Source of the DNA: Actinobacteria bacterium HGW-Actinobacteria-7
Lineage (GTDB): Bacteria; Actinomycetota; Coriobacteriia; Anaerosomatales; PHET01
DNA length: 64,000 nucleotides
Assembly (NCBI GenBank): GCA_002841275.1
Contig: PHET01000002.1
Coordinates: 1 to 64,000 of the forward strand
Reading direction: 5' to 3'
The notes beneath the pieces were generated by a model. The model saw only the letters and a program-made list of their open reading frames with translations. It made no database searches and had not been told where the DNA came from. This document shows, piece by piece, positions 50,177-56,513 of this stretch (positions are counted from its first letter, which is position 1; each line of letters starts with the position of its first letter). Position numbers and translations under genes: made by a program.

Positions 50177-51463
50177 CTAGATATCTTCTACACGGATGAC
50201 GGCTGCAGTACGCGACACCACGTCAAGCGCCTCGATCTCGGACAAGGCCGAGCGCACAGACGCTTCACGGGCACAGTGCGTGACGTACACGATTTCGGCC
50301 ACGCCCTCCTCCGCCCGCTTCTGGATGACCGAGGCGATCGACACCTCATGGGCGCCAAACACACTCGCGACGGCCGCGAGCACGCCGGGCTTGTCGGCGA
50401 CTTCGAGCCGGATGTAGTAGCCGGTTTCGAGATCTGCGATGTCGCGCAGAGGCAGCACCTCGGTGCAGGTGCACCCCACAGTGGGCGCGCTGCCGCTCTG
50501 GATGCGACGAGCGACCTCGATCAGGTCGCCCACCACAGCAGAAGCAGCAGGCAGTGAGCCTGCACCCTCGCCAAAGAACATCGTCTCACCCACAGAGTCG
50601 CCCACCACGTAGATCGCGTTGTAGACGCCGTTGACACTAGCGAGAGGGTGAGACGTGCGGATCATCGTAGGATGAACGCGAATATCGACACCGGAGTCGG
50701 TACGGCGTGCGATTGCGAGCAGCTTGATGGTGCTGCCCATCTCGCGCGCATAGGCGATATCGGCGGGTGAGAGCGAGCGGATTCCCTCGGTGGGAACCTG
50801 ACTCATCACGACCCGGCTGTTGAAGGCGATGGAAGCCAGAATGGCAATCTTGGCAGCGGCGTCGTGGCCGTCCACGTCTGCGGTGGGATCCGCCTCCGCG
50901 AAGCCGCGGGCCTGCGCCTCGGCGAGCACCGTATCGTAGTCGAGCCCGTCGTCGGCCATACGGGTGAGCATGTAGTTGGTTGTGCCGTTGACGATTCCCA
51001 TCACGGTGACGATCTCGTTGCTGGTCAGGGAGTGCTTGAGCGGTTCGATGATGGGGATTCCGCCGCCGACCGATGCTTCGAAGCGGATGTCGACGCCCGA
51101 GGCTTCCGCCGCCACCATCACCTCTTCGCCTGAGGTCGCCATCAGCGCCTTGTTGGCGGTCACGACGCTCTTGCCGGACGCGAGCGACTTCAGTACGACG
51201 TCACGCGCGATACCCGTCCCGCCGATAAGCTCGATGATCACATCGAGTGACGGATCGTCGATGAGCGCCTGGGCATCATCGGAGCACGCCTCGGCGGCAA
51301 GGCCTAGATCAGCGAAGCGGGCAGTATTGCGATCGGCGAACCGGGCCAGCTCGATATCGACTCCGGCACGACGTCGGAAGTCCTCACGATGACGGCCCAG
51401 GATCTCTATGACACCGGATCCAACGGTGCCAAGGCCGATAAGACCAACACGGATGGTGCGCAT
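50177..51463 (-). CDS. hom: Homoserine dehydrogenase with C-terminal ACT domain
   Basis: Hom reduces aspartate semialdehyde to homoserine, feeding threonine and methionine. The 428 residues show the NAD(P) loop GLIGLGTVGSGV, VTANKALMA, the catalytic region EASVGGGIPIIEPLK, VNGTTNYML and EADPTADVDGHDAAAK. Residues 350-425 form an ACT domain (YYIRLEVADKPGVLAAVASVF), which implies threonine feedback. ATG at 51461-51463 follows GGAGG. A TAGAAT at 51514-51519 (minus strand) could be its -10. Confidence 0.95.
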   Translation of the reverse strand: MRTIRVGLIGLGTVGSGVIEILGRHREDFRRRAGVDIELARFADRNTARFADLGLAAEACSDDAQALIDDPSLDVIIELIGGTGIARDVVLKSLASGKSVVTANKALMATSGEEVMVAAEASGVDIRFEASVGGGIPIIEPLKHSLTSNEIVTVMGIVNGTTNYMLTRMADDGLDYDTVLAEAQARGFAEADPTADVDGHDAAAKIAILASIAFNSRVVMSQVPTEGIRSLSPADIAYAREMGSTIKLLAIARRTDSGVDIRVHPTMIRTSHPLASVNGVYNAIYVVGDSVGETMFFGEGAGSLPAASAVVGDLIEVARRIQSGSAPTVGCTCTEVLPLRDIADLETGYYIRLEVADKPGVLAAVASVFGAHEVSIASVIQKRAEEGVAEIVYVTHCAREASVRSALSEIEALDVVSRTAAVIRVEDI

Positions 51464-51579
51464 GGAGAACCTCCGGGAGACGTTGTTGAGACGCACTGAA
51501 TGGCGTGCAGCCTATTCTACCCGAGAGTGGCCGCGAGCCACCGGTCAGACGGACAAGACCCGCCGACGCACCGCAGCCG

Positions 51580-51972
51580 CTACGGTGAGCCCTTGGCCCA
51601 GTGCAGGTACTCAGCCAGGTCGGCCTCTCGCGCCTCAGGCGTACCAAGCTCCAGTTCACGCCGATACTCCGCGGCGGCGATAAGATCACGCGGCTCCATC
51701 CGCGCCACACCGACCCACATCTCAAGCTTGGCCAGATTGCCATCGCTGACCTTAAGCGCCGCCAGCATCAGCCGACACGCAGTCTCGTCCGCTTCCTCAC
51801 CGCAGTCCGGTGCAGGAGCGAGATCGGCGAGATAGACAGCGGCGTGCGTGTGGGCGGGCGCGGGGAAGCATTCGCGCAACCGCGCATTCACTGTCCGAGA
51901 ATCCCAAAACGACGCCTTGTACCCGAGCTCATCAGGGTGGTTCGGTTCCGGCGTCTCCACGCTGCTACTCAA
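51580..51972 (-). CDS. Hypothetical protein overlapping the thioredoxin-like selenoprotein gene
   Basis: I do not recognise this 130-residue protein. It is soluble, acidic, without signal peptide, and mostly helical, with motifs GYKASFWDSRTVNARLRECF, DLAPAPDCGEEADETACRLMLAA and MEPRDLIAAAEYRRELELG. The start is a TTG at 51970-51972 that overlaps the stop of the upstream gene by 8 bases, behind AAGGGT, which suggests coupled expression. A GTG four codons later is possible. Three cysteines are present. Confidence 0.6.
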   Translation of the reverse strand: MSSSVETPEPNHPDELGYKASFWDSRTVNARLRECFPAPAHTHAAVYLADLAPAPDCGEEADETACRLMLAALKVSDGNLAKLEMWVGVARMEPRDLIAAAEYRRELELGTPEAREADLAEYLHWAKGSP

Positions 51973-52381
51973 GACCCTTGTCGATGAATGTGCGCAGGGT
52001 CGAGGCGTCGGCCGCGCCGTCTAGCCGGGCAATCTCGGTCCCATTCGTGGCGACGATTATCATCGACGGAAGGGTGGTCACCCGATGATCGTCAGCGATC
52101 TTCGCACTTGACTCGTCTGTGTTCACCGCGCCGTAGATCACGAACTCGACCTTTCCCGCATACTCTGACTGTAACCCGTTGACCACGGGCCTCATCTCAG
52201 CGCACGAGGGTCAACTTGGGTCGCCGAATATGTATAGCGTAGGCAGCCCGGAAGCCGATGGCGCCCACACCGTTCCGGGCGCGGCCCCGTCAGCCACCTG
52301 TGTCGAGACGCAGCCCCCCGCACCCACAACAAGCAGCGCGAGGAACGCCATCATCACCAATATCGTGCGGAGCCTGATCAT
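51965..52381 (-). CDS. Thioredoxin-like lipoprotein with in-frame UGA (probable selenoprotein)
   Basis: Reading from ATG 52379-52381 through one in-frame TGA (52211-52213) to TAG 51965-51967 gives 138 residues. The first 24 form a lipoprotein signal (hydrophobic core, GAGGC with Cys24). Then comes TLYIFGDPS, the UGA codon at position 57, and PSCAEMRPVV, so the redox motif reads U-P-S-C where thioredoxins have C-x-x-C. The cis-proline region VTTLPSMIIV and final IDKGLE complete a thioredoxin fold. A GGUC-loop hairpin lies 21 nt after the UGA. A purely automatic call would miss the signal and active site and start at the ATG at 52193-52195. No strong ribosome binding site is seen. It lies between lysA and an overlapping unknown gene. 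Confidence 0.8.
52175..52189 (-). promoter_or_regulatory. Candidate bacterial SECIS element
   Basis: On the minus strand CCCGT and ACGGG form a 5-bp stem around GGTCA, extendable by two G-U pairs. The apical GGUC begins 26 nt after the UGA codon. Bacterial SECIS elements are short hairpins just after the UGA, with a guanine-rich apical loop (GGUC in E. coli fdhF), so position and loop both fit. Confidence 0.7.
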
Positions 52382-52442: not shown

Positions 52443-53804
52443 TCAGCCCAACTCACACTTCATCAGATCGTCGTAGGTCTCGCGCCGCACGGCCCAGCGC
52501 CAGCCACCGTCGACGACGAACACGACACCGGGGCGCACCTGCTTGTTGTAGTTGCTGCTCATGGACTGGCAGTATGCCCCCGTTGCGCACACACACAGGA
52601 TGTCTCCGACATCCGGGCACTGCAGAGGCGCATCGTTGACTACGATATCCCCGCTCTCGCAGTGCTTCCCCGCGACCGTGGCCACCATCTCGCGCGGCCT
52701 GTCCGCCTTGTTGGCGATCATCGCCTCGTAGTGCGCATCGTAAAGGGATGTACGGATGTTGTCTGACATGCCGCCATCGACCGCCACATAGGTGCGGATG
52801 TTGGGAATCTCCTTGATCGAGCCCACGGTATAGAGGGTCACACCCGCATTGGCAACGATAGAGCGTCCCGGCTCGACGGCCATGCGCGGCACGGTCAGCC
52901 CGTGCTTCTCGCACTCCGCCTTGATCCCGTCGACCACCACTTTGCCGTAGTCCTTGATTGTCGAGGGCTCGTCCGGAATGCCGTAGGCGATGCCCAGTCC
53001 GCCGCCCGTATCGAGCATGCCGACCCCGACGCCCGTCTCGGCCTTGATCTCAGCGATGAACTCGACGATGACCTCGATGGCCTTGGAGAAGCTGTTCAGG
53101 GCGAAGATCTGGCTGCCGATGTGCATGTGCAGCCCGTCGAAGTCCAGTCCGGGCAGCTCGATTGCCCGCTTCACGGCAGCCATCGCGAGTCCCTGATTGC
53201 GGCCGAAGCCGAACTTGGAGTCCTCGGCGCCGGTCATGATGAAGTCGTGCGTGTCTGCCTCGACTCCCGGGGTGACGCGCAGGAGCACTTTCTGGTTGAT
53301 GCCTCGCTCACTTGCCAGAGCGCTCAGGCGGTCCATCTCCTCGAAACTGTCGACAACGATGCGGCCAACCTTGGCATCGAGACACTCGGTCAGCTCGACA
53401 GGGGTCTTGTTGTTCCCATGGACATAGATGCGATCCATCGGAAAGCCCGCTCGGCGCGCGAACGCCAGCTCTCCACCGCTGGAAACGTCCAGGCAGCACC
53501 CCTCGTCAGCCACGATCTTCAACATGGCAAGCGACATGAATGCCTTGCCCGCGTAAACGACGTCCACGTCTTTCCAGTGATAGGTGGTCCACTTCACATA
53601 CTCCGAAAGCTGGTGGCGGATGGTCGCCTCGTCCATCACGTAGACCGCGGTTCCCGCTTCGGCTGCGAGATCGACCATATCCACTCCGCCGATCCACAGG
53701 TGGCCATCTTTCACCTGCGCGGTCATGGGCAGCACGGACATGAGGTCGTGACCCGTCTTGAGGTCCGGCGTCGCCGGCGGTCGCGGTGCGCTGGGTCTAC
53801 CCAT
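52443..53804 (-). CDS. lysA: Diaminopimelate decarboxylase
   Basis: LysA makes lysine from meso-diaminopimelate with PLP. The 453 residues show the PLP lysine in VYAGKAFMSLAML (about 87), HGNNKTPVEL, HMHIGSQIF, DTGGGLGIAY, EPGRSIVANAG and CESGDIV with the cysteine from the partner subunit site. The N-terminus has about 25 extra residues. ATG at 53802-53804 follows AAGGGGATCACC, a good site. A promoter lies just upstream, overlapping the argS end. Confidence 0.95.
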   Translation of the reverse strand: MGRPSAPRPPATPDLKTGHDLMSVLPMTAQVKDGHLWIGGVDMVDLAAEAGTAVYVMDEATIRHQLSEYVKWTTYHWKDVDVVYAGKAFMSLAMLKIVADEGCCLDVSSGGELAFARRAGFPMDRIYVHGNNKTPVELTECLDAKVGRIVVDSFEEMDRLSALASERGINQKVLLRVTPGVEADTHDFIMTGAEDSKFGFGRNQGLAMAAVKRAIELPGLDFDGLHMHIGSQIFALNSFSKAIEVIVEFIAEIKAETGVGVGMLDTGGGLGIAYGIPDEPSTIKDYGKVVVDGIKAECEKHGLTVPRMAVEPGRSIVANAGVTLYTVGSIKEIPNIRTYVAVDGGMSDNIRTSLYDAHYEAMIANKADRPREMVATVAGKHCESGDIVVNDAPLQCPDVGDILCVCATGAYCQSMSSNYNKQVRPGVVFVVDGGWRWAVRRETYDDLMKCELG

Positions 53805-55935: not shown

Positions 55936-56397
55936 CTAGTGACGGACGAGGGCCGCGGAGAAGCGCTTGGGGAGCAGACCGTAGAGATAGCACCCCAGGC
56001 AGAAGTCCGCGAACGCATCCAGTGAGGCGACTCCGATGAAGAGCGCCGCCACAACGTTGAACCAGAACATCGAATGGAACGAATACGCCATCATCAGGGC
56101 AATGCTCGACATCAACCCCGCCAACAGCGCAGCGAACCGCTTGGGGGCGGAGTCGACACGCCTGCTCTCGAGCTCGAGCATCCTGACTACGAACCTTGAG
56201 ACCATGCAATTAGGGCTACAGGCGAAACCGGCCACGATCTTGACAAGGTAGTCCAGCGCCAGATAGCCGAGAATCCAAGGTGACTTCGTGACGACCGCCG
56301 CAACCAACAAGGCGACAACCAGTGTCGCGTTCACACGTGCCGCAGCCTCGTCGACTTTCTCGCCCCCAATGGGACATTGAGCCACTCGTTCCACCAT
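55936..56397 (-). CDS. DUF4395 family membrane protein
   Basis: DUF4395 proteins are integral membrane proteins of unknown role, often near thioredoxin-like genes. About 153 residues, with AQCPIGGEKVDEAAARVNATLVV at the N-terminus, WILGYLALDYLVKIVAGF, DSAPKRFAALLAGLMSSI and the C-terminal FADFCLGCYLY. Conserved cysteines in CPIG and FCLGC suggest a thiol function. About four membrane helices. I favour the ATG near 56397; a TTG 15 codons upstream is the alternative and its extra residues are only basic. Confidence 0.75.
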   Translation of the reverse strand: MVERVAQCPIGGEKVDEAAARVNATLVVALLVAAVVTKSPWILGYLALDYLVKIVAGFACSPNCMVSRFVVRMLELESRRVDSAPKRFAALLAGLMSSIALMMAYSFHSMFWFNVVAALFIGVASLDAFADFCLGCYLYGLLPKRFSAALVRH

Positions 56398-56513
56398 CTT
56401 GATCACCGCCCGCTGCTTGGTTCGCAACGCCCGCTTTCGCAAGTCCCCAAGTAACCTATCGGCACCTTAAGGTTGAGCAATATACCCTGTGGGGTTCCGG
56501 TTCTCGAGGGCGG

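Follow-up and report, generated by a model that had tools for sequence, protein, structure and literature searches.

Comparative sequence evidence makes it very probable that an in-frame UGA in a short gene of the window, the whole 64,000-nucleotide stretch of DNA analyzed here, is recoded as selenocysteine (Sec) and that the product is an exported, lipid-anchored selenoprotein with a thioredoxin fold. The conservation of the TGA column among homologues, a covarying hairpin and the Sec machinery of the host genome together argue for a real selenoprotein gene and not a pseudogene.

Results

When TGA 52213-52211 is translated as Sec the product has the pattern MIRLRTILVMMAFLALLVVGAGGC...LYIFGDPS-U-PSC...LPSM...KGLE, the full chain being MIRLRTILVMMAFLALLVVGAGGCVSTQVADGAAPGTVWAPSASGLPTLYIFGDPSUPSCAEMRPVVNGLQSEYAGKVEFVIYGAVNTDESSAKIADDHRVTTLPSMIIVATNGTEIARLDGAADASTLRTFIDKGLE. 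The ATG at 52381 is the first possible start, because an in-frame TGA lies two codons upstream. The first-pass annotation had given correct coordinates but not the strand, which is minus. Its description of a single TGA that joins the signal and lipobox half to the thioredoxin half in an unchanged frame is borne out by the translation, and the ORF list confirms that standard calling would leave a C-terminal fragment only (Table 1). Both neighbors lysA and argS terminate at TGA, so that UGA is a normal stop here and a genome-wide reassignment of this codon is ruled out.

Table 1. Features of the selenoprotein gene and its flanks, in window coordinates
Feature	Position	Strand	Basis
Whole selenoprotein gene, 138-aa thioredoxin-like lipoprotein	51965..52381	minus	translation with TGA as Sec; start ATG 52381, stop TAG 51967-51965
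Lipoprotein signal peptide, lipobox Cys24 at its end (VVGAGG-C)	52310..52381	minus	sequence; orthologue lipoboxes
UGA codon 57, Sec, first position of U-P-S-C	52211..52213	minus	one alignment column, with 92 TGA and 30 Cys among homologous loci
Resolving Cys60 of U-P-S-C	52202..52204	minus	invariant across 122 homologous loci and alignment A1
bSECIS hairpin, stem GGCCCGU/ACGGGUU, loop GGUCA (52184-52180)	52173..52191	minus	folding, covariation, covariance model R1 (50.2 bits)
76-aa fragment expected from standard gene calling	51965..52195	minus	table-11 ORF list
Pro105, thioredoxin cis-proline opposite the active site	52067..52069	minus	invariant column, alignment A1
lysA, diaminopimelate decarboxylase by sequence	52443..53804	minus	61 nt upstream, stop TGA
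hom, homoserine dehydrogenase by sequence	50177..51496	minus	downstream neighbor

A search of 200 relatives, together with 8 loci from a scan of genome contigs, gave 122 homologous loci once duplicates were removed. At residue 57 the alignment has TGA in 92 of them and Cys in 30, the UGA occupying the Cys position of homologues, while residue 60, three residues further on, is Cys in all 122, and in the 92 TGA loci the matched region contains no further stop. The alignment of homologues that the first-pass annotation had proposed as a check always places TGA or Cys at exactly the UGA codon, and another frame was never seen. All but one of the TGA loci (91/92) come from the window's order, the exception (L055) belonging to a Clostridiales genome. 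At least one TGA copy occurs in 60 of the 69 searched genomes of the order, the host included, and a phylum-wide profile search returned more TGA-bearing homologues beyond the order.

The published rule for bacterial SECIS elements specifies a loop of 3-9 nt with a G in the first two positions, a stem of 4-16 bp, a distance of 16-37 nt from the UGA and an MFE ≤ -7.5 (PMC13188914). With its 5-nt loop GGUCA, a 7-bp stem and an MFE of -19.3 kcal/mol (z of -2.1 against shuffles, for this one sequence) the window hairpin fits this model, as the first-pass annotation had suggested checking. That annotation had placed a hairpin with an apical GGUC 21 nt after the UGA; the hairpin exists, and the distance is to be amended, the stem beginning 19 nt and the loop 26 nt downstream. 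Because 47% of synonymous shuffles of the window gene also pass the rule, a hairpin in one sequence is weak evidence alone. Over the whole set the rule is passed by 81 of 92 Sec loci versus 6 of 30 Cys loci, and by 20-37 of the 92 when codons of the Sec set are swapped for synonyms.

Covariation was scored on 63 thinned distinct sequences for which the region after the UGA is gap-free. Stem positions are paired in 93% of cells, with 44 double-sided compensatory cells, and none of 500 shuffles matched the real pairing or covariation score; when the partner is shifted by 1-3 bases, pairing falls to 25-47%. From 24-40 to 29-35 the pairing is 95-100% standard, with UA in 34 sequences, CG in 26 and GC in 1 at pair 27-37, and with GC, CG, AU, UA or GU at pair 28-36. 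Of 87 loops 68 read GGUC, and all 87 keep the second G. With position and pairing conserved through compensatory changes the hairpin is, by this comparative evidence, far beyond chance. In the same columns the Cys homologues are 41% paired, and they lack the hairpin.

Compensation extends to amino acid changes, Pro CCU going with Arg AGG and Pro CCC with Gly GGG ten bases apart. Since the main covarying pair joins a silent Pro position to a first codon position, it appears to be the RNA stem that dictates whether the protein has Arg or Gly. In variants with CUG GUC GAG the stem is likewise kept, with Val/Asp replaced by Leu/Glu. An Rfam scan of the locus gave one sub-threshold, irrelevant match only, on the opposite strand; RF00031 is a model of the eukaryotic SECIS and is uninformative for the window hairpin.

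The host genome (2.53 Mb, 38 contigs, 100% complete) contains selA, selB, selC and selD, the four genes for which the first-pass annotation had proposed a search. The tRNA-Sec scores 69.3 bits, above cut-off, with anticodon UCA, and SelA 595.8 bits. SelB (317 bits) runs off contig C34 and resumes on C2; with a 25-residue overlap common to both contigs, it is intact across the break. SelD (371.7 bits) has an in-frame TGA of its own at the classical site, GUAAK; the host SelD is itself a selenoprotein by this motif (GUAAKW, L018:1441-2430, G000:C34). As selD, selA and selB form one cluster reaching the contig end and selC lies on the adjoining contig, one assembly gap could remove all of them. 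We did not find selA in 15 genomes of the order, including 5 near-complete ones (at least 90% complete, at most 5% contamination). Two of these, G017 and G021, have no listed TGA copy either, as expected. The other three (G053, G055 and G012) have TGA copies, yet selA and, with part of the tRNA candidates scored, tRNA-Sec were not found in them; the missing selA most likely reflects assembly gaps.

Pfam Thioredoxin_2 (37.6 bits) and Thioredoxin both match the window protein above cut-off across the UGA, and Thioredoxin_4 (DsbA-like) gives a weak match of 26.5 bits, also above cut-off. AlphaFold2 predicts a thioredoxin fold (pLDDT 95.3, pTM 0.87) for which the best PDB matches are thioredoxins, and Sec57, Cys60 and the cis-Pro are invariant in alignment A1, so that profile, fold, C/UxxC motif and cis-Pro all place the protein in the thioredoxin superfamily. 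Judged by eye, the N terminus has the hydrophobic stretch and cysteine (VVGAGGC) of a lipoprotein; the -3 residue of this lipobox, Ala, is unusual, and the corresponding site of orthologues carries canonical lipoboxes (LVGC, LSGC, MSGC). Three DsbD_TM (CcdA-like) genes are present in the host genome, none of them adjoining the selenoprotein gene. A Cys paralogue (HSTTCQSC, L061) directly adjoins a DsbD_TM/CcdA gene at G000:C38:97618-98564, and that gene is a candidate for the conduit by which envelope thioredoxins would receive electrons.

In the tree the window protein groups within a starred clade of nine members, all of them Sec. The branch of the window copy is long (1.36) and its codon-position bias relative to orthologues weak, from which it is conceivable that selection may be relaxed on this copy alone. 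Two kinds of variation appear elsewhere in the tree. Sec members with HSLTUxSC (L150, L153, L155 and L157) lie within a mainly Cys group, have their GGUC hairpin 3 nt nearer the UGA and probably represent an independent Cys/Sec switch. Window-clade members L024, L025 and L026, including two same-family genomes, are carried on a two-helix membrane protein and not on a lipoprotein signal, and two-helix members in L065 and L066 are near NADH-quinone oxidoreductase-like genes.

Immediately upstream, lysA is a probable operon neighbor of the selenoprotein gene, and its homologue is also close to the Sec gene in G016. The argS/lysA-SecTrx-hom-thrB-sppA setting is kept in G016 and G029, which belong to other families of the order, and inheritance is thus vertical, the context being uninformative on function. 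No conserved functional partner gene was found in the compared neighborhoods, where the neighbors are those of amino acid biosynthesis (lysA, argS, hom and thrB), and a plasmid search gave no match. On the same strand a 130-aa ORF (window 51580-51972) overlaps the selenoprotein stop by 8 nt and has neither a Pfam match nor a relative in the compared loci; a DUF4395 protein with several cysteines (55936-56442) is encoded a few genes upstream, also on the minus strand.

The host genome encodes a second Sec-thioredoxin, a membrane-anchored rhodanese fused to a Sec-thioredoxin with U-P-T-C (G000:C1:186456-186746; L060:4522-5259). Its gene has the best SECIS score, 62.2 bits, and is found beside GlnB/Amt-like genes; such fusions are present in related genomes too (L037, L041-L043, L046). 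A scan of the host genome with R1, a covariance model trained on the order, returned no further clear selenoprotein genes, the next matches reaching 20 bits or less in noise-like frames. R1 is family-specific, as the SECIS of SelD escapes it.

Discussion

In the mechanism that we propose SelB and tRNA-Sec would recode the UGA at codon 57, guided by the GGUC stem-loop, a step that the comparative data bear out. Export and lipoprotein anchoring, for which support is strong, would then place the thioredoxin fold and its U-P-S-C motif outside the membrane, as expected from the lipoprotein signal. There the Sec selenolate would attack disulfides or other oxidized thiols, either in envelope proteins or in small molecules; Cys60 would then resolve the mixed selenenyl-sulfide, and the selenoprotein would be re-reduced by a membrane protein of the DsbD/CcdA type. 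We regard this last part, a role as envelope disulfide reductase, as about evenly balanced.

It is rather unlikely that the selenoprotein acts instead as a DsbA/DsbC-like oxidase or isomerase and not as a CcdA-fed reductase, a reading that bears on this last part only and is compatible with recoding and anchoring. Some Dsb proteins have a Pro as in U-P-x-C, and the weak Thioredoxin_4 match points in the same direction, whereas the best family and fold matches are to thioredoxin and Thioredoxin_2 and the genome encodes DsbD_TM reductant channels, one of which adjoins the Cys paralogue. The long branch of the window copy and the use of TGA as an ordinary stop in neighboring genes would fit a pseudogene, in which a thioredoxin once carrying C-P-S-C had acquired the UGA by nonsense mutation; this is highly improbable given that TGA recurs at the catalytic Cys position in 92 loci of many genera with the remaining frame open, that the hairpin covaries and that the Sec machinery is complete, and for the family the comparative record has already refuted it. 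Reading of the UGA as a near-cognate Trp, Cys or Arg, or function of a truncated or alternative product, has a very low likelihood, with the UGA at the redox Cys/Sec site, a SECIS that fits the bacterial model, Sec machinery at hand, and products of 56 residues (signal peptide plus one strand) or 76 residues (no signal, no catalytic residue). The Sec interpretation, already put forward in the first-pass annotation, is thus supported by the sel genes, the SECIS fit and the TGA/Cys column.

The Sec proteins of this set form a large and mostly uncatalogued group in the order, an order-wide, well-supported selenoprotein subfamily outside the NCBIfam models, and standard calling would reduce dozens of its genes to short fragments. 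With more than 60 distinct sequences they also provide an unusually clean natural data set on a bacterial SECIS constraining its own protein. Tentatively, and with a confidence just short of even, we suggest that selenium may drive most of the thiol chemistry in the envelope of a whole order of anaerobic-type Actinomycetota, whose genomes would encode Sec-thioredoxin lipoproteins in parallel with rhodanese-Sec-thioredoxin fusions, both overlooked by standard annotation, with the SECIS hairpin having shaped residues of the thioredoxin helix (Arg versus Gly, Val/Asp versus Leu/Glu). That the extracytoplasmic thiol chemistry of these bacteria depends on selenium is a testable claim.

Comparison with Known Systems

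Classical thioredoxins are cytoplasmic and carry W-C-G-P-C; the window protein, in contrast, has U-P-S-C behind a lipoprotein signal and scores 35.2 bits against the TrxA model TIGR01068, well under its cut-off of 96.8. It resembles the TlpA/ResA-type envelope thioredoxins in having an extracytoplasmic thioredoxin fold that is anchored to the membrane and probably supplied by CcdA, but Sec replaces the first Cys and the ResA model gives 11.4 bits (cut-off 170). Weak domain similarity links it to SaoT, TsoX and TsoB (NF040730, NF045809 and NF045694), also thioredoxin-like (seleno)proteins; it lies far under the cut-offs of SaoT and TsoX (16.6/65 and 15.9/52 bits), and the rhodanese-fused paralogue differs likewise from TsoB (41.7/805 bits). 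No NCBIfam model reached its cut-off for the window protein or for four further family proteins scanned whole, and a literature search combining selenoprotein, thioredoxin-like and Coriobacteriia, the presumed class of the order, found no paper in the library covered.

Thioredoxin-fold selenoproteins with U-x-x-C are a known kind (PMC13188914, PMC9312934, PMC1088965, PMC1794560), and both Thioredoxin_2-type 'thiol:disulfide interchange' selenoproteins and U-x-x-C thioredoxins have been catalogued (PMC13188914 Table 1). With the experimentally studied Sec-containing thioredoxin (PF00085, UxxC; PMC13188914) the window protein shares the thioredoxin fold, UxxC and the cis-Pro. With the 'thiol:disulfide interchange protein' (PF13098, UxxC; PMC13188914 Table 1) it has in common Thioredoxin_2, U-x-x-C and a predicted bSECIS, but the window clade is actinobacterial, short and lipid-anchored and reaches no NCBIfam cut-off; the listed representative of the former is WP_011366075.1. 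The novelty hinted at in the first-pass annotation therefore does not extend to U-x-x-C thioredoxins as such, already catalogued (PMC13188914), and holds for the actinobacterial lipoprotein clade and its size, which appear undescribed. Given the known U-x-x-C kind and the lack of an NCBIfam model at cut-off, we file these proteins as a new subfamily of a known kind.
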